From the NCBI RefSeq assembly GCF_000152625.1, contig NZ_CH724156.1, forward strand, positions 2,534,602-2,598,601: 64,000 bases of DNA. The letters are read 5' to 3'. The position numbers and the translations under genes are program-made. Origin of the DNA: Roseovarius nubinhibens ISM (GTDB lineage: Bacteria > Pseudomonadota > Alphaproteobacteria > Rhodobacterales > Rhodobacteraceae). The notes under the pieces are model-generated. The model saw nothing but the letters and a program-made list of their open reading frames with translations. It did not search any database and was not told the origin of the DNA. Below, in pieces: positions 1 through 41,572 of this stretch (positions are counted from its first letter, which is position 1; the number at the start of each line of letters is the position of its first letter).

Positions 1-1938
<1,938 letters not shown>

Positions 1939-2023
1939 ATCCAGTAATAGCAAGACTATTACAGAACAAAATCAAAAGCATACACACAATGCGTACTTGA
2001 CTTGGTACTCAGGAACTTTCCTC

Positions 2024-2141
2024 GGTTTGGTGGTCATAGCACAAGCGAAACACCCGGTCCCATCCCGAACCCGGCCGTTAAGCGCTGTCGCGCCGATGGT
2101 ACTGCGACTTAAGTCGTGGGAGAGTAGGTCACCGCCAAACC
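2024..2141 (+). rRNA. rrf: 5S ribosomal RNA
   Basis: A 118-nt 5S rRNA lies about 85 nt after the 23S gene. Its ends, GGTTTGGTGGTCATAGC and CACCGCCAAACC, pair as helix I, and the internal loop block CACCCGGTCCCATCCCGAAC is the normal bacterial 5S signature. It is co-transcribed with 23S and followed by tRNA-fMet. Confidence 0.96.
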
Positions 2142-2197
2142 TAGAAAAGTTCCTCAAGTATCTCTCAATACAAACAAAATCGAACAAACACCCCTGT

Positions 2198-2274
<77 letters not shown>

Positions 2275-2282
2275 AAACACCG

Positions 2283-2318
2283 AAAAAGCCCCGCAAGCCG
2301 CGGGGCTTTCGGCGTTTG
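2283..2318 (+). terminator. rRNA operon terminator
   Basis: AAAGCCCCGC pairs with GCGGGGCTTT across an AAGCC-type loop just 8-10 nt after tRNA-fMet, followed by TTCGGCGTTT. A very similar hairpin recurs at 5859-5897. This is a Rho-independent terminator for the rRNA operon. Between it and the next gene at 2505 I see only a second weaker hairpin. Confidence 0.85.
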
Positions 2319-2380
2319 GGGGGGTATTCCTTCCATTGGATCACGCTGGTGCCTCCTCGATGACCTGATTTCAGGCCGTT

Positions 2381-2404
2381 AACTCCCCTGTTGGGGGTGT
2401 TTTG
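2381..2404 (+). terminator. second weak hairpin with T run
   Basis: ACTCCCC and GGGGGTGT pair across TGTT and are followed by TTT. It could be a back-up terminator of the rRNA operon or part of the leader of the next gene. Confidence 0.4.
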
Positions 2405-2504
2405 CAGGCGTGGGATCGGCGGTGGCGGCGCAGGCGGAAGCGGATTGACTGGTTGAAAGACCTGCGCATAGGCTGGAGAGGGTCATGCGGTAGGGGAATT
2501 TCTG

Positions 2505-3128
2505 ATGAAACTCGGTCGGTTTTTCGCAAGTGTTTTGGCGCTGTTCACCATGGTGGGGAGTGGCCAGGCGCAATCGCTGTCGGCGGCAGAGATTGCCGCG
2601 ATGGTGGATGAGCGCATGGGCAGCGTCGACGAATATGCTGAATTGCTCAACGATCCGGACCCGGATCGGTCGCTGGCGGCGATGCAGATCATGATCGGAT
2701 TGGATGATGCGCAGATCAGCCGCATGGCGTTGCAGCATGGGCTGACCAGCACCAGCCCGGGGGTCCGGAAGGCGGCGCTGAAAGCCTATCTGGACACCGG
2801 GCCGATCCTGAATATTTACATCGATGGCTCGTCCTTGGATCGGGAGAACCTGACCTCGGCAATCAACCAGCAAAGCGGCACGGTGGATACGTCTGGGACG
2901 GCGTTTTTATCCTATAAGGTCGGTGGCTTTGATGCGGAAAACGGCTGTTACGATTTCCACGTGAATGCGAGCTATTGCCTGCTCACCTTGAGCGAAAGCA
3001 ATGTGTCGATGAACCTGTGGAGCCGGTGGACCTCGATGACGTTGAATGCCGAGGGCAATCTTGTCGGCATGCTTCAGGTGGCCAATATCAGGCCGTCGGT
3101 GCCGGTGACGGTCCCGGTCAAACCGTGA
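2505..3128 (+). CDS. secreted protein of unknown function
   Basis: A 207-residue protein with a clear Sec signal peptide (KLGRFFASVLALFTMVGSGQA, cleavage predicted after about residue 23). The mature part begins with a short acidic helical region with the look of a HEAT-like repeat (residues about 45-85, LAAMQIMIGLDD...VRKAALKAY), then a beta-rich domain with one likely disulfide region (C-Y-D-F...Y-C). I do not recognise a family. It reads away from the rRNA operon and is convergent with the next gene, 16 nt away. The start is set by TAGGGGA upstream of the ATG. Base composition is less GC-rich than the neighbours. It is probably periplasmic. Confidence 0.7.
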   Translation: MKLGRFFASVLALFTMVGSGQAQSLSAAEIAAMVDERMGSVDEYAELLNDPDPDRSLAAMQIMIGLDDAQISRMALQHGLTSTSPGVRKAALKAYLDTGPILNIYIDGSSLDRENLTSAINQQSGTVDTSGTAFLSYKVGGFDAENGCYDFHVNASYCLLTLSESNVSMNLWSRWTSMTLNAEGNLVGMLQVANIRPSVPVTVPVKP

Positions 3129-3144
3129 GTCTGGGCGGTCCGGG

Positions 3145-4200
3145 TCAATAGACCTCGACGCTGTCGATCTGCACCGGCCCGGAGCCCTGAACGCTGTCGA
3201 TGGTCACGATCACCCGGCGGGCGAAGCGTTCGGATTTCTTGCCGCTGTCGAAACTGCCGGTCGGGGTCATTTCACCGCGGTCGAACCGCTGTGGGTTTCC
3301 GCCTGCTGCCGAAGGGTCGATCATCACGCGAATGGCCAGCGGTTTGGCCGCGTCGGCCTGCGACCGGATACGCACGCGGCTCACGCCGACCGCCTCGCCA
3401 TCGCCCACGCCAAAGACCAAGGTGGTGCGACCGGTAAATTCAAAGCGATAGGGGCCGCTGCGGGTCGCGAGGTTTTCCGGGCTGGCGTCGGGGGTGAGGG
3501 CCTGCGTCTGATAATCCAGTAGGCGCAATTCATGCTGGCCCTCTTCGGGCTGAGCCACGGTCTCAGTCGCGGCGCTTGTCACGGCGCGGGCGCGGCCGGC
3601 AAGCCAGCGGCGCGTCGCGAAACCCAGCTCTTCGATCCGGATGAAGCTCATGCGCTGGCTGCCGTCCGGGCTCTGGATCGCCATGCCGACGGGCAGCTCG
3701 TCGGCAAAGAGAAACGCGCCGGACAGGCCTTGGAAGGCGCGGTCATCGGGGTCTTCGAATTCGGCAACAAAGGTCTTGTGGTCGAGCGTGTCGACGATCC
3801 GCATCGGCCGCTGGGTGACGCCGCCGCCGGGCTCGACAAAGCGCAGATCGCCGCGCAGGACAGCGCCGGCGGTCTTGCGGGTCTGCATGATCATGCCGAG
3901 CTCTGCGGTGCAGGCGGTGCGTCCCGCCGCCTGACCCACAACGCCGATGGCGAAATCCATGCCCTCCCAGAAATCGGGATAGGCCTCGCCGCTGCCATAG
4001 ACGGAGGGCGCGGGCGAGGTCTCGACCTCGATCTGCCCAAAGGCGTCGAGCAAATGGCTTGGCATGAGAACCCAACAGATGCCATTATCCTTAACCATAA
4101 ACCCTTGGCCGTCGGAGGCTGCGTCGATTCTGACGGCCTGGGCCCAAGCACTGGTCGTGATGACGAAGGCAGCGAGGGGGACGAAGATGAATTTGATCAT
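3145..4200 (-). CDS. secreted trypsin-like (S1-fold) protein
   Basis: A 351-residue exported protein (signal peptide to about residue 20, SAWA-QA). No family label is obvious, but three spaced motifs match a chymotrypsin-fold protease: CWVLMPSHLL around His49, MDFAIGVV around Asp82, and GLSGAFLF around Ser160 followed by PVGMAI. The spacing (33 and 78 residues) fits a compact N-terminal protease domain of about 180 residues. The C-terminal half (about 235-351) looks like a separate beta-sandwich. The usual GDSGG is GLSGA, so activity is uncertain and a pseudo-protease is possible. Its ATG overlaps, on the opposite strand, the start region of the next gene. Confidence 0.65.
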   Translation of the reverse strand: MIKFIFVPLAAFVITTSAWAQAVRIDAASDGQGFMVKDNGICWVLMPSHLLDAFGQIEVETSPAPSVYGSGEAYPDFWEGMDFAIGVVGQAAGRTACTAELGMIMQTRKTAGAVLRGDLRFVEPGGGVTQRPMRIVDTLDHKTFVAEFEDPDDRAFQGLSGAFLFADELPVGMAIQSPDGSQRMSFIRIEELGFATRRWLAGRARAVTSAATETVAQPEEGQHELRLLDYQTQALTPDASPENLATRSGPYRFEFTGRTTLVFGVGDGEAVGVSRVRIRSQADAAKPLAIRVMIDPSAAGGNPQRFDRGEMTPTGSFDSGKKSERFARRVIVTIDSVQGSGPVQIDSVEVY

Positions 4201-4891
4201 GAAACCCTTGGCTTTGGCGCTGAGCGTGAGCGTCTTATTGTCACCTAGTTTCCCGGGCCAAGCAACTGCGGAGCAGGCCGAGCTGCTGTCGGAAGTCTTT
4301 CAGGAAAATCTACGCCCGGCGGCGAATACCGGCGGGGCGCGGGTCATGGGGCTGCAGGTGATCGGCAGTGATGCGGCGGCGGAGCTGCACGCCATTGTCC
4401 CGAGCGACTGGGCCGGCAAGGAGTTCTGCGTGCGCACCAGCAGCTCTGACGGGCTCTATGACAGCGAGAACACCTATCGCGCGCCGCAGAACACGTCGCA
4501 GCCGGTGACCGTGCCGCATGTGATGATGACCCGTTTTCCCGATAAGCTCGCCCAGACCGCGCCGGAAGGGTTTGGCATCCGCATTCTGCAAGCGCCCTGT
4601 GACGAGGTGACCGAGGAGACGGCGGCGGGGCTGGCGCTCTGGCGGGCGTCGGGCCGGGCGGAGAGCTTTACGCTGCTGGTGAACAGCTTTGACGCGGATC
4701 GGCTTGTCGCCATTCCCGGCACCGGCGCGCCGGTGGAATGCACCGAGATCAGCGCCGACATCACCGTGGCCTTTGACCGGATCTGTGTCGTGCCGAGACC
4801 GCCCGAGACGGGCAGGATGAAGATCCGGCTTGTCCCGGTGAAGGACGGGCGGCGCGGGCGGCCCGAAACCCTGTTTGTCGAGCTGCCATGA
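4187..4891 (+). CDS. exported protein of unknown function
   Basis: The reading frame is open from 4064, but the natural start is the ATG at 4187 (AGGGGG seven bases upstream) or the ATG at 4199. Either gives a signal peptide ending near GQATA-EQ. The mature protein is about 205 residues, with paired Cys (FCVRTS, APCDEV, ECTEI, ICVVP) that suggest disulfides in the periplasm. No family recognised. The start codon region is shared with the divergent trypsin-like gene (CAT 4198-4200 against ATG 4199-4201). The downstream gene overlaps its stop by 4 nt, so the two form an operon. Confidence 0.7.
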   Translation: MNLIMKPLALALSVSVLLSPSFPGQATAEQAELLSEVFQENLRPAANTGGARVMGLQVIGSDAAAELHAIVPSDWAGKEFCVRTSSSDGLYDSENTYRAPQNTSQPVTVPHVMMTRFPDKLAQTAPEGFGIRILQAPCDEVTEETAAGLALWRASGRAESFTLLVNSFDADRLVAIPGTGAPVECTEISADITVAFDRICVVPRPPETGRMKIRLVPVKDGRRGRPETLFVELP

Positions 4892-25497: not shown

Positions 25498-26666
25498 CGC
25501 CAGCCCCCGGATCCACGGCCGCGGGCGAAGGTCCGCTGGCGGGCCTCCGGGTGCTCGACCTGACCCATGTGCTCGCCGGGCCCTATGCCACCGGGCAGCT
25601 GGCGCTCATGGGGGCCGAGGTGATCCGGGTGGAACGGCCTGCGGGCGATGATTTCGTGCGCGGCCATGGCGGCACCGAAGAGATGCGCGCCGCCGGGCTG
25701 GGGGCGAGTTTTCTCAGCCAAAACAGTGGCAAACGCTCGATCACGCTCGATCTCAAGGGGGCGGGCGACCGCGCGCGTCTGCTCGATCTGGCCCGCAGCG
25801 CCGATATCATGGTCGAGAATTTCCGCCCCGGTGTCGTCGACCGTCTCGGCGTGGGCTATGACCAGATCCGCGCGGTGAAACCCGATATTCTCTACGCCAG
25901 CCTGAGCGGTTATGGCCCCGATGGGCCGCTCGCCGGGCGACCGGCCTATGACCATATCCTGCAAGGGATCAGCGGCCTCATGGCGATGACCGGCGAGGCG
26001 GCCAGCGGCCCGATGCGCGTCGGCCTGCCCATTGTCGACTATGTGGCGGGTCAGGCGTTGGTGGCGGCGCTGCTGGCGGGGCTCTTGCAGCGCGCGAGGG
26101 TGCCCGGAGAGCCGCAGCACCTGCAGATCTCGATGCTCGATGCGATGACGACGCTGATGGGGGCCTATGCGCTGCACCATGAAACCACGGGTCAGCTGCG
26201 GGGGCTGGAGGGCAACCGCGCCTTTGCCGATACGCCCTATTCAGGGCGGTTCGACTGTGCCGAGGGGGCCATCGTGATCACCGCCAACACGCCCGCCCAG
26301 GCCACCCGGCTCTGTGCGGCGCTGGGGCGCGAGGACCTGCTCGATCAGGGCGCGCCGGGGCAGGTGGCCGACAGCCTGCGAGAGATTTTCCTCGCCCGTG
26401 ACGCCGATCACTGGGAGGCGCATCTCTCCGAGGCGAATGTCCCCGCCGCGCGGGTCCGGAGCCTCGCCGAGGCGCTCGACCATCCGCAGATGAAACACAG
26501 CCCCGCCTGGCGCGATTTGCCGGTGCCGCAGCTCGGTCTGACGCTGCGCGCCCCGGCGCTGCCCTTTGCCGCGCCCTGGGGCCCCAAGACGCTGGCGCCC
26601 GTACCGACATTGGGCCAGCACACAAGTGAAATCCTAGCCGACTTGCCGAAGGAGGCCGCCTCATGA
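25494..26666 (+). CDS. family III CoA-transferase (CaiB/BaiF)
   Basis: A 390-residue CaiB/BaiF-type CoA-transferase. N-terminal LAGLRVLDLTHVLAGPYATGQLALMGAEVIRVERP and LSGYGPDGPLAGRPAYDHILQGISGLM are family blocks; the catalytic Asp is Asp182 in GLPIVDYVAGQ. The ATG at 25494 overlaps the alpha-subunit stop. Such enzymes move CoA from a donor such as succinyl-CoA to a carboxylate. Placed between the two hydratase subunits, it probably activates the hydroxy-dicarboxylate product (a malate or citramalate analogue) for cleavage by a lyase. No lyase gene is visible in the window. Confidence 0.88.
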   Translation: MTPAPGSTAAGEGPLAGLRVLDLTHVLAGPYATGQLALMGAEVIRVERPAGDDFVRGHGGTEEMRAAGLGASFLSQNSGKRSITLDLKGAGDRARLLDLARSADIMVENFRPGVVDRLGVGYDQIRAVKPDILYASLSGYGPDGPLAGRPAYDHILQGISGLMAMTGEAASGPMRVGLPIVDYVAGQALVAALLAGLLQRARVPGEPQHLQISMLDAMTTLMGAYALHHETTGQLRGLEGNRAFADTPYSGRFDCAEGAIVITANTPAQATRLCAALGREDLLDQGAPGQVADSLREIFLARDADHWEAHLSEANVPAARVRSLAEALDHPQMKHSPAWRDLPVPQLGLTLRAPALPFAAPWGPKTLAPVPTLGQHTSEILADLPKEAAS

Positions 26667-27331
26667 AACCGCGTGAAATCCGACTGTCCACCACCCCGAG
26701 CGCCGAAGATATTGCGGCGCTGCGCCTTGGCGATATCGTCTATCTCGACGGGCTGATCTACACCGCCCGCGAAGGCGTCTACATGCGCGCGCTCGAGAAA
26801 AACGCCAATATTCCCATGGAGTTGCCATCCGAGTCTGCGGCAAACTTCCACTGCTCGCCAGCCGCCACGATCCGCTCGGACGGCACCTTCGACATGGGGG
26901 CGGTGACCGCCACCGCCTCGTTCCGCTTTGCCAAATGGCTGCCCGAATGGATGGCCAAGACCGGCGCCCGTTTGATCATCGGCAAGGGGGGGATGTCGTC
27001 GAAGGATTACAAGGAATATTTCGTCCCCAATGGGGCGGTCTACCTGTCGACCGTGGGCTATGGCACCGGGGCGCTTTTGGGCCGTGGGGTGGAAAAGGTC
27101 GAGGCGGTGCATTGGAACGAAGAGCTTGGCCTCGCGCAGGCGATGTGGGTGATCCGCTGCAACAAGATGGGGCCGTTCATCGTGGCCTCTGACCTCGAAG
27201 GGAACTGCCTCTTTGAGCGTGAGAACGCCAAGATCGCCGGCAATCTGGCCCGGGTCTATGAGGGCACGCGCCCGGCGGTTCTCAAACGCTATGGCGAGAC
27301 CGATGACCGCTCGGATGAGGTGATCGGCTAG
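26663..27331 (+). CDS. class I fumarase-type hydratase, beta subunit
   Basis: A 222-residue beta subunit (fumarase C-terminal domain, TtdB-like). Typical blocks are LRLGDIVYLDGLIYTARE, CSPAATIRSDGTF, the swivelling-domain KGGMSS turn, and ELGLAQAMWVI. With the alpha subunit it completes the hydro-lyase. It overlaps the CoA-transferase stop by 4 nt and is the last gene before a terminator. Confidence 0.87.
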   Translation: MKPREIRLSTTPSAEDIAALRLGDIVYLDGLIYTAREGVYMRALEKNANIPMELPSESAANFHCSPAATIRSDGTFDMGAVTATASFRFAKWLPEWMAKTGARLIIGKGGMSSKDYKEYFVPNGAVYLSTVGYGTGALLGRGVEKVEAVHWNEELGLAQAMWVIRCNKMGPFIVASDLEGNCLFERENAKIAGNLARVYEGTRPAVLKRYGETDDRSDEVIG

Positions 27332-27360
27332 CGTCACCACGCGAGAGTTTCACCCGGCCA

Positions 27361-27396
27361 CACCCGCCCTCTGACAGGGGGGCGGGTGCTGTGTTT
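27361..27396 (+). terminator. operon terminator
   Basis: CACCCGCCC and GGGCGGGTG pair across a 10-nt loop and are followed by CTGTGTTTTG, 30 nt after the hydratase beta stop. It ends the nine-gene operon. From here to 27540 (on the plus strand) I see only short CGTCGGCAT-like direct repeats near 27426-27460. Confidence 0.7.
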
Positions 27397-27547
27397 TGAA
27401 GGGGGGCTAGATCGCCAAAATGCCATGTCGGCAACACGTCGGTATGACGTCGGCATCACGACTGCGCGCATTTTTGTAGAGAACCCATCGCAACATCGCT
27501 GCTTTGTGCAAACATGCGGCGCGAGTGTCTCTGAGAAGAGGGGAAAG

Positions 27548-27630
27548 TGGTGGGCGACCCTGGAATCGAACCAGGCGTGCGTCTCCGCGAGGGAGCCGCA
27601 GGCGGGCCCTGCCATCTGGCCGTATCGCGC
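27548..27630 (-). pseudogene. tRNA-Tyr-like degenerate copy 3 (distal)
   Basis: An 83-nt tRNA-like element with CCA. The T arm, long variable arm and 3' acceptor strand equal tRNA-Tyr; the 5' strand GCGCGAT can still pair at six of seven positions. The D loop is too short and the anticodon loop is replaced by a GC-rich sequence with no GTA. It carries CATCTG where the other two copies have CACTTG. Confidence 0.75.
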
Positions 27631-27710
27631 AGGATCGATCCGGGGGATCGATCGGCGGCCACGAGCACAGCGCTTGCGGGGTCGAAAAGGTCATGAAAAG
27701 GAGGGGAAAG

Positions 27711-27793
27711 TGGTGGGCGACCCTGGAATCGAACCAGGCGTGCGTCTCCGCGAGGGAGCCGCAGGCGGGCCCTGCCACTTGGCCGTATCGCGC
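27711..27793 (-). pseudogene. tRNA-Tyr-like degenerate copy 2
   Basis: Same structure as the other two copies, 83 nt. From tRNA position 37 to CCA it is identical to the functional tRNA-Tyr; positions before that are diverged in the same way in all three copies. It cannot decode Tyr. Confidence 0.75.
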
Positions 27794-27874
27794 AGGATCG
27801 ATCCGGGGGATCGATCGGCGGCCACGAGCACAGCGCTTGCGGGGTCGAGATTGGTCGTGAGAAGGAGGGGAAAG

Positions 27875-27957
27875 TGGTGGGCGACCCTGGAATCGAACCA
27901 GGCGTGCGTCTCCGCGAGGGAGCCGCAGGCGGGCCCTGCCACTTGGCCGTATCGCGC
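27875..27957 (-). pseudogene. tRNA-Tyr-like degenerate copy 1 (proximal)
   Basis: The copy nearest the functional gene, 83 nt, identical to copy 2 across the tRNA-like part. The break of identity with the true tRNA falls inside the anticodon loop, just after the anticodon. Confidence 0.75.
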
Positions 27958-28038
27958 AGGATCGATCCGGGGGATCGATCGGCGGCCACGAGCACCGCGC
28001 TTGCGGGGTCGAAATAGGTCAAGAAGAGGAAGGGAAAG

Positions 28039-28122
28039 TGGTGGGCGACCCTGGAATCGAACCAGGCGTGCGTCTCCGCGAGGGAGTTACAGTCCCCTGC
28101 CACACCTTGCGGCCTGTCGCCC
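28039..28122 (-). tRNA. tRNA-Tyr (GTA anticodon)
   Basis: An 84-nt class II tRNA with encoded CCA on the minus strand. Acceptor GGGCGAC/GTCGCCC, anticodon GTA at 28088-28090, loop CTGTAAC, a long variable arm CGCGGAGACGC and T arm CCTGG-TTCGATT-CCAGG. It is divergent from rlmB, 135 nt away. Three tandem degenerate copies follow its 3' end. Confidence 0.95.
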
Positions 28123-28257
28123 ACTTTCCCGGCACAAAAGCGCCGGATGTGGGGGGCTGATTACCGCCGCGACCGGGGGGCGTCAACAGGAAAATCGCTT
28201 GCGCCCGGACAATCGGCAGTGCACGGAGGGGGCCAGTTGAGAAAGGGGCATCTTGCC

Positions 28258-29037
28258 ATGAAGAAACCGCGCTGGGTCATCGACAAGGAACAGGCCAAAA
28301 AGGCCTCGGCCGCCGAAACCGTCTGGCTTTTCGGGCTGCATGCGGTGCGCGATGCGCTGATGAACCCGGCCCGCGACAAGCTGCGGCTGATCGTGACCAA
28401 GAACGCCTGTGACAAGCTCCAAGATGCCATCGACGCCGCCGGGATCACCCCCGAGATGGCCGACCCGCGCAAGTTTTCCGCCCCCATCGATCCGCAATCG
28501 GTGCATCAGGGCGCGGCGCTCGAGGTCAAGCCGCTGAACTGGGGCTCGCTCGAGGATGTGGCGCTGCGCGAGGGCGTGGGCGCACCGCGTCTGCTGCTGC
28601 TCGACCGGGTGACCGACCCGCATAACGTGGGGGCGATTCTGCGCTCGGCCGAGGTGTTCGGCGCGCAGGCGGTGATCGCGCCGCGCCATGGCTCGGCCCC
28701 CGAGACCGGCGCGCTGGCCAAGACGGCGAGCGGGGCGCTTGAACGGCAGCCCTATCTGCGGGTGCGCAACCTCGCCGATGCGATCAGCGAGTTGCAGGCG
28801 ATGGGGTTTCTGGTGCTTGGCCTGGCGGGCGAGGCGGAGGACACGATCGACGCCGCGCTCGACGGGATGCGCGACCGGCCGGTGGCGCTGGTGCTCGGGG
28901 CCGAAGGGCCGGGGCTGCGGCAGAAAACCCGCGAAACCTGCGACAAATTGGTCAAAATCCCCTTTGCCGGCGGCTTTGGCTCGCTCAACGTCTCGAATGC
29001 GGCGGCGGTCTCCCTATATGCCTCCCGAGAGCGGTAA
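28258..29037 (+). CDS. rlmB: 23S rRNA (guanosine-2'-O)-methyltransferase RlmB
   Basis: A 259-residue SpoU/TrmH-family (SPOUT knot) methyltransferase. An N-terminal RNA-binding part (WLFGLHAVRDALMNPARDKLRLIVT) precedes the knot motifs DPHNVGAILRSAEVFGA, LVLGAEGPGLRQ and IPFAGGFGSLNVSNAAAVSLY. Family function: 2'-O-methylation of G2251 in the 23S P loop using S-adenosylmethionine. Start: the ATG at 28258 with AAGGGG upstream; the longer open frame reads into the tRNA-Tyr leader. Close paralogues (TrmH, RlmB-like) cannot be ruled out completely. Confidence 0.85.
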   Translation: MKKPRWVIDKEQAKKASAAETVWLFGLHAVRDALMNPARDKLRLIVTKNACDKLQDAIDAAGITPEMADPRKFSAPIDPQSVHQGAALEVKPLNWGSLEDVALREGVGAPRLLLLDRVTDPHNVGAILRSAEVFGAQAVIAPRHGSAPETGALAKTASGALERQPYLRVRNLADAISELQAMGFLVLGLAGEAEDTIDAALDGMRDRPVALVLGAEGPGLRQKTRETCDKLVKIPFAGGFGSLNVSNAAAVSLYASRER

Positions 29038-41056: not shown

Positions 41057-41225
41057 GACAAAGCATCCTCTGTGAAAGGTCAGTGGATGCGACTTTGGGC
41101 CAAAGCCTCACGGGGCAGTCGCGGCGGCCCCATGCCGAGCAGAATGAAAGGCGCGGCGCGCGCTGTCAATCCCGGTGCGGTGCAGGACCGGGTGCGAATT
41201 GGGTGGGGGGAATGGGGGGGAAGAT

Positions 41226-41537
41226 AAGTGCAGGCTTCTGTTGCCAGGTGCCTGCGAACCCCGCCTTACCTGGCTAGAGGCAAGGGCTTAAGTTTCGGTT
41301 ACTCCGACTGCTTACGCAGCCATTGCGACCGGAGCACGATTGTCATTTGCAATTGTACTGTTCGGGCCGATACGGTGGCACCCCGCCGAGACAAAGCTAA
41401 CCCCTTTAGACGTTCGTCGATCCTATTTCGTCCCCATGATCCCCAAATGAAGGATGGTTGGTGGAGACGCCGGGTACCGCCCCCGGGTCCGATCCGCTTA
41501 TTACGAGCGCGTTTATGTCCATAGTCCCCAAGGGGAC
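41226..41537 (-). ncRNA. ssrA: tmRNA, circularly permuted two-piece (alphaproteobacterial) form
   Basis: Read on the minus strand, the acceptor piece comes first and ends GGCGTCTCCACCA (near 41458-41470). After a short intervening loop the coding piece starts GGGGATCATGGGGACG. The reading frame at 41350-41312 encodes the tag ANDNRAPVAMAA followed by TAA. A pseudoknot (GCCAGGT/ACCTGGC interleaved with GCAGGC/GCCTGC) ends the coding piece near 41230. The 5' GGGGATC strand pairs with the acceptor 3' strand. tmRNA frees stalled ribosomes and tags the peptide for ClpXP. Ends are approximate; short ORFs over it are spurious. Confidence 0.92.
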
Positions 41538-41544
41538 AGGGAGG

Positions 41545-41572
41545 AATATAGGCGCGGGCGCGGGCAAAGCAA
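41545..41572 (-). promoter_or_regulatory. promoter of the tmRNA gene
   Basis: On the minus strand TTGCTT (41572-41567) and TATATT (41550-41545) are separated by 16 nt, a good sigma-70 match. Transcription would start near 41537 and enter a GTCCCC-TT-GGGGAC hairpin. Confidence 0.65.

Follow-up and report, generated by a model that had tools for sequence, protein, structure and literature searches.

Tandem repeats behind tRNA-Tyr in a Roseovarius genome share the layout of the E. coli rtT repeats and may form a 3'-trailer RNA module

The stretch of DNA analysed here (the window, 64,000 nucleotides of Roseovarius nubinhibens ISM, contig NZ_CH724156.1, positions 2,534,602 to 2,598,601) carries on its minus strand a tRNA-Tyr(GTA) gene with an encoded CCA end and, directly behind it, three direct repeats of 164, 164 and 163 bp (Table 1). 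A first-pass annotation made from the letters of the sequence had described three 163-164-bp units 3' of tRNA-Tyr, and repeat searches and TRF agree with it: 74-nt copies recur at spacings of 163, 164 and 164 in a direct-repeat search, the three 164-nt repeat copies show 93%, 100% (the reference itself) and 97% identity, and TRF gives a period of 164 with 3.4 copies and 95% matches over an array at 27538-28086. A search of the 3.68 Mb host genome places the array at a single genomic position.

Every unit has the same order of parts, a spacer of 57-58 nt, a hairpin, a link of ~37-38 nt with the core TGGCAGGGCCCGCCTGCGG and, at its end, the copied 3' half of tRNA-Tyr. The gene and all three copies are identical over the final 48 nt, from anticodon-loop base C38 to the CCA, as the annotation had stated. 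The hairpin, GATCGATCC-CCC-GGATCGATC, is a perfect 9-bp stem with a CCC loop; this palindrome is present in every unit and had been overlooked. Its core GATCCCCCGGATC occurs exactly three times in the whole genome, once per unit; when one mismatch is allowed, the window contains five occurrences, the three units among them, where 0.43 would be expected. The spacers of the units differ mainly in their first 28 nt, and the hairpin and link are near-identical across the three units, which bears out the remark that the part ahead of the copied half is "diverged in the same way in all three". We rejected a decayed tRNA 5' half as the nature of this part, as relatives have the hairpin and link there instead.

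A promoter-like element upstream of tRNA-Tyr was recognised by eye, and several relatives show TTGACG together with TAATCA or TAAATA at roughly this position; a strict sigma-70 scan returned no promoter within 27300-28300. Within the same interval there is no T-tailed terminator-like site on the strand of the array, the sole one there lying on the opposite strand. Minus-strand ORFs starting MAGPACGSLAETHAWF at the cores are 83-123 aa long; the unit length is not divisible by 3, and the frame of these ORFs contains TGA in the cores of Lentibacter and genome G228. Elsewhere in the window, at 41221-41551 on the minus strand, lies a tmRNA (ARAGORN mark tmRNA*) with the tag ANDNRAPVAMAA.

Table 1. 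Features of the tRNA-Tyr locus, in window coordinates
Feature	Position	Strand	Remarks
Promoter-like TTGACG-17-TAATCA	28158..28186	-	by eye; end 35 bp before tRNA-Tyr
tRNA-Tyr(GTA)	28039..28122	-	ARAGORN; best Rfam match tRNA-Sec, 38.1 bits, gathering score 47
Unit 1 spacer, 58 nt	27981..28038	-	
Unit 1 hairpin GATCGATCC-CCC-GGATCGATC, 9/9 pairs	27960..27980	-	covariation in relatives
Unit 1 link, with TGGCAGGGCCCGCCTGCGG	27923..27959	-	
Unit 1 copy of the last 48 nt of tRNA-Tyr	27875..27922	-	
Unit 2 spacer, 58 nt	27817..27874	-	
Unit 2 hairpin	27796..27816	-	
Unit 2 link	27759..27795	-	
Unit 2 copy of the tRNA-Tyr 3' half	27711..27758	-	
Unit 3 spacer, 57 nt	27654..27710	-	
Unit 3 hairpin	27633..27653	-	
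Unit 3 link	27596..27632	-	
Unit 3 copy of the tRNA-Tyr 3' half	27548..27595	-	
Array end, short partial start of a further spacer	27535..27547	-	
Terminator-like hairpin with T tail, strand of the fumarase gene	27361..27388	+	1 found against 0.8 expected in shuffles, weak alone
SpoU-family rRNA methylase gene, divergent from tRNA-Tyr	28258..29037	+	start is an internal ATG of the listed ORF

The copies had been proposed to be tRNA mimics without an anticodon, which would fold like tRNAs and act as decoys for CCA enzymes, RNase P or a synthetase. The T arm, the variable arm and the CCA are intact in the window copies, and six of the seven acceptor pairs noted earlier are possible there, one of them G-T. 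This pairing is a property of the window and is not conserved across relatives: in 13 other units the acceptor 5' strand pairs at 3-5 of seven positions in the best of seven registers, in a test that took the 3' strand by position and is off by indels in four of the 13 (S. maritimus, EhC04, DFL14 and Marinovum). ARAGORN calls no copy a tRNA, its sole call being the true gene, and no copy matches an Rfam tRNA model at E<=1, a weak test because the sole match to the true tRNA is tRNA-Sec below the gathering score; the Rfam tRNA models fit true tRNA-Tyr poorly and miss it at locus L053. The predicted fold of the window unit keeps, as far as can be recognised, the T arm alone of the cloverleaf. 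We consider it very unlikely that the copies are tRNA mimics.

One common module, composed of the hairpin, a link of 34-38 nt and the tRNA-Tyr 3' half and preceded by a spacer that is species-specific, was found behind tRNA-Tyr at related loci in carriers scattered through the Rhodobacteraceae, including Roseovarius, Sulfitobacter, Marinovum, Aestuariivita and others. The core pattern CCTGNGGNTCCCTCGCGGARACGC occurs at 13 loci among GTDB genomes, assigned to Sulfitobacter, Aestuariivita, Thalassorhabdomicrobium, Lentibacter, Marinovum, Roseovarius and Rhodobacteraceae without a genus name; conservation inside the pattern is by construction because it came from the first carriers, and the hairpin, TGGCAGGG and the spacer lie outside it. 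At nine of the 13 loci the 3'-half copy (0-13 mismatches, ungapped) stands 138-313 bp, mostly ~160 bp, behind the tRNA's own 3' half. The copy is decayed at locus L052 (at 160 bp) and truncated at L044 (at 133 bp), no tRNA is present within L048, and at L055 the unit lies at the locus end, a further stretch of that genome showing the tRNA with the usual spacing. Copy number ranges from 0 to 3, and three-unit arrays are present in the window and in G500, a Sulfitobacter with three identical 205-bp units. In Sulfitobacter delicatus (L047 / L247), where the spacing is 313 bp, tRNA-Tyr and the copy are separated by a run of N with room for about two units, and the run may conceal a two-unit array that the draft genome did not resolve.

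R1, a covariance model of hairpin, link and core, matched three of 84 genomes of the window's genus and did not find the module in the other 81 (69 of 72 when counting genomes of at least 90% completeness), and it matched 13 of 62 Sulfitobacter at E<=0.01, decayed and hairpin-only cases included. In a draw of 394 genomes, one per genus, R1 and the core pattern each matched four, the latter with G228 instead of G141, which makes five different genomes across both searches; in about 99% of the genera drawn the module was not found. In a further sample of 110 family tRNA-Tyr loci, chosen for the best tRNA match or for two matches and including one locus (L106) with only 5 nt downstream, three show a copy no more than 900 nt away, two of these with the hairpin. 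These carriers were identified by patterns and a model derived from the first carriers, and the R1 searches of the genus and family used stricter filters. As the module was not found in most relatives, it is dispensable.

The presence of the module was mapped on a tree of rlmB with 96 rows, 23 of them carriers, comprising 59 of the 62 Sulfitobacter, 30 of the 84 genomes of the window's genus and seven rows chosen for carrying the core. At least 12 state changes are needed, and within Sulfitobacter six for 13 carriers among 59, on a tree of modest support in which two Sulfitobacter with the unit away from the tRNA were scored manually as carriers. This pattern could reflect losses on several occasions, acquisition by recombination more than once, or a combination of the two. 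The small number of carriers in each of the searches and the number of state changes both favour the strongest rival to a trailer module kept by selection, namely that a single duplication of the tRNA 3' half and the sequence following it spread or persisted through recombination, its products growing, contracting and decaying with no function. Decay is indeed seen, in the copies of G496, G532, S. maritimus and UBA7951, in the hairpin that stands without a copy in G504 and in the decayed hairpin without a copy in G494.

What speaks against neutrality is the hairpin. It is fully paired in 12 of 12 units of a first alignment (A3), with both-sided changes in three of its nine pairs, and slid controls on that alignment reach at most 56% of cells paired. 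An alignment of 18 units (A4), two of them decayed, has 98.8% of hairpin cells paired and four pairs with both-sided changes; this count was reached by 43 of 500 shuffles and the covariation score by none, and several of the compensated hairpin sequences are near relatives. The core contains a three-pair stem around a TGC loop, the outer pair of which (columns 56/64) is A-T in 11 of the 18 units and G-C in seven, never mixed. Mean pairwise identity among 11 thinned carriers is 0.93 in the hairpin, 0.67 in the link and 0.37 in the last 60 nt of the spacer, as compared to 0.28, 0.30 and 0.26 (sd 0.025) in shuffles, the spacer too being somewhat above its shuffles. From hairpin start to copy the distance is 55-59 nt in the 15 genomes that have both, and the spacer measures 52-102 nt in 14. 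Compared to the window's own, hairpin plus link are 81-98% identical in 13 carriers, the rlmB side is 74-81% identical, and the spacers are 66-85% identical by the same gap-tolerant measure. On the other side, the stretches from hairpin to copy have fold energies that are only mildly low (10 sequences, z +0.8 to -2.9).

In all 15 genomes in which the core comes after it the hairpin is perfect, and it is imperfect at four of four sites where none follows (G496, G532, G504 and the terminal repeat of S. mediterraneus), giving a Fisher p=0.00026, or 0.0027 after thinning, values that come from a hand-made site table and ignore the way in which the sites were found. Two further sites without an intact copy, G494 and the last repeat of G500, were left out of the test and are imperfect by eye. 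Four core-bearing loci are without the canonical hairpin: Lentibacter has another, and none was seen in Thalassorhabdomicrobium, G228 and UBA7951. The copies in G030, G078 and Marinovum carry the T-arm variant of their own tRNA, and the truncated copy of UBA7951 is without the GGAAACGC variant of its own. Two roles for these parts were considered and rejected. Pairing of the link with the tRNA 5' half is not consistently better than in shuffles, 27 to 157 of 300 of which paired as well for the five links tested, and a general tRNA-Tyr terminator would not be confined to two of 110 family tRNA-Tyr loci, both with copies, nor does the hairpin have a T tail.

The first-pass annotation had reasoned that the lack of a transcript past the tRNA 3' end, together with relatives that have no repeats or randomly decayed copies, would mean a neutral local duplication. 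Such relatives exist, and to that extent the expectation was borne out; yet the hairpin stays perfect and acquires compensatory changes while the adjoining spacer drops to 0.37 identity, and hairpins without an intact copy behind them do drift. The conserved, covarying hairpin therefore argues against pure neutrality, and we regard duplication without function as a serious possibility, though less likely than not.

A different origin is suggested by the use of tRNA-Tyr as an integration site in the genus, which agrees in part with the suggestion in the annotation of scars of insertion at the anticodon loop. According to this alternative, the unit is a remnant of an integrative element or is itself a tiny non-autonomous one, with the tRNA-Tyr 3' half as attachment site and the link as its end. 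Stretches of ~1.1, 1.7 and 4.3 kb lie between tRNA-Tyr and a second 3' part in G041, G035 and G061, respectively, and these second parts start within the anticodon arm, near the start of the copies' identity. A large serine recombinase gene, with Resolvase and Recombinase domains, lies ~190 nt behind tRNA-Tyr in G069, and a similar ORF of 561 aa stands at the same distance behind the Aestuariivita copy. By eye, the units of G030 and Aestuariivita sit exactly between the tRNA and the sequence that adjoins the tRNA in other genomes. A direct repeat of the tRNA 3' part that starts in the anticodon arm is common to tRNA-targeted integrative elements and the present units, and such a repeat of the tRNA 3' end as boundary is found in the window.

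The likeness does not extend further, as the ~160-bp unit holds no recognised gene, and the three true att ends examined (G041, G035 and G061) have other sequence before the 3' half, with neither hairpin nor link. No recombinase was recognised in or beside the window units, whose neighbours are fumarase parts and the SpoU methylase (three ORFs compared with Pfam). The three genomes of the genus in which R1 found the module do not include G069, nor G020 and G004, which have similar sequence behind tRNA-Tyr, and the unit was on this ground rejected as the end of serine-recombinase elements. A viral or phage carrier was likewise discarded: the core pattern has no exact match in IMG/VR, the unit has none in phages, and a plasmid search gave two matches, both short. 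There is also no further 3'-half copy within ~95 kb behind that of G030. We judge it improbable that the unit is an integrative element or its remnant; an integration origin of the first unit is possible, given that relatives use tRNA-Tyr for integration.

The analysis also documents the tRNA-Tyr of Rhodobacteraceae as an integration site in use; tRNA-Tyr is an unusual target for large serine recombinases. The recombinase gene of L224 (324-2009, minus) and the similar ORF of L045 (2323-4008, minus) both lie near tRNA-Tyr or its copy, and so does a recombinase zinc-ribbon fragment in L039 (3379-4284, minus). The 4.3-kb stretch of G061 (L038, G061:C59:144500-151500) encodes at 1211-4336 on the minus strand a protein of 1041 aa with a calcineurin-like phosphoesterase domain and a sub-threshold nSTAND NTPase match, and is possibly a small defence-type cargo at tRNA-Tyr. 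In G496 ~18.7 kb separate the tRNA from the unit, and in S. mediterraneus the two are on different contigs, with recombinase-like sequence behind the tRNA by eye. Partial tRNA-Tyr 3' copies were seen in the Sulfitobacter set ~32 kb from the gene in G501 (C14:439945-440002) and on another contig than the gene in G533 (C17:68108-68160), and these could mark where other islands end, as att sites.

The closest known case is the E. coli tyrT/tyrV locus with its rtT RNA (rttR; Rfam RF00391, RtT). Behind tyrV of E. coli MG1655 there are three repeats of 178 bp, all of which close with the final 19 nt of the tRNA, and a repeat copy of 66% lies between tyrV and tyrT. Both systems have a tRNA-Tyr (GUA) with three direct repeats directly behind it, of 178 bp in E. 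coli and 163-164 bp here, and in both every repeat closes with a copied tRNA 3' end, CCA included, and the parts follow in the same order, with an E. coli hairpin, GTTGCC-GCA-GGCAAC, seen by eye ~31 nt before the copy. They differ in the length of the copied stretch, 48 nt here as against 19 nt, and in the hairpin, the sequence of which in E. coli is unlike the one described here. The RF00391 model gives four matches of 133-138 bits at the E. coli locus used as control, and none at E<=1 in window positions 26500-29000 or at loci L093, L095, L045, L084, L053 and L096; nor was a gene like tpr, the protamine-like frame annotated at the E. coli locus, recognised here. The parallel with tyrT/rtT drawn in the first-pass annotation is thus well supported in layout and does not extend to the RtT model. 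As the model matches E. coli but not the window and carriers, the array is like rtT as far as layout tells and yet, by this comparison, not a member of the RtT family.

A table of variable-number tandem repeats in Salmonella includes one at 'rtT RNA' (PMC2658671), and from that entry the copy number of rtT seems to vary in Salmonella too. A tRNA 3' trailer acting as RNA, a possible mode here, is exemplified by the 3' external transcribed spacer of glyW-cysT-leuZ, a sponge of small RNAs in E. coli, for which pairing of the leuZ spacer with RyhB is reported; tandem copies of a tRNA 3' end are not mentioned in the parts of that report considered here (PMC6191717). Among the best-ranked matches of a literature search covering titles and the starts of abstracts, with few subscription journals, there was no work on tRNA-Tyr tail repeats in Rhodobacteraceae.

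Based on the layout and the conservation of its parts, we consider it an even call that the array constitutes a tandem 3'-trailer module of tRNA-Tyr, similar to rtT and under some selection, and it probably acts as a cotranscribed RNA. We propose that the tRNA-Tyr promoter would transcribe the array as a long 3' trailer, a suggestion based on the strand and position of the units and on the lack of a T-tailed terminator on their strand in the scanned stretch. With identical halves of 48 nt spaced 160 bp apart, the locus offers a good substrate for unequal recombination, which, to judge from the anatomy of the array, may add and delete units and keep them alike; this would explain copy numbers of 0-3, the identical units of G500 and the T-arm variants shared by copy and tRNA in G030, G078 and Marinovum. 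The hairpin and the tRNA 3' half with its T arm and CCA may be kept by selection because both act together, as their joint conservation suggests. In its simplest role the module would be cut out, in the manner of rtT or the leuZ spacer sponge, as a short CCA-ended RNA whose 5' end is protected by the hairpin, and such RNAs might compete for tRNA 3'-end enzymes or serve as trailer-derived regulatory RNA; as to the actual target of the trailer RNAs we can offer a guess at most.

A more far-reaching proposal, which we put forward tentatively and with less than even confidence, is that the array represents a hitherto undescribed roseobacter RNA module of hairpin, link and tRNA-Tyr 3' half, which is under selection, multiplies into tandem arrays 3' of the tRNA-Tyr gene and is, in Alphaproteobacteria, the independent counterpart to rtT of E. 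coli. If true, the production of small RNAs bearing a tRNA 3' end has drawn on tRNA-Tyr trailers on more than one occasion. To our knowledge the E. coli rtT repeats have had no clear role for decades, and a second case at this tRNA, identical in the order of its parts and unmatched by the RtT model, makes a comparison with rtT possible, which could show which part is kept (hairpin, link core or 3' half), where it is lost and what copy number does.

Stem-CCC-stem hairpins also occur apart from tRNA-Tyr. G141, one of the R1 matches of the one-per-genus draw, has a tandem pair of them behind a reading frame (L092, ~1500-1625), and others lie in the middle of L088 (G479), in both cases on the reverse strand and with no tRNA in the 3-kb locus, and the hairpin may be one member of a broader palindrome class.
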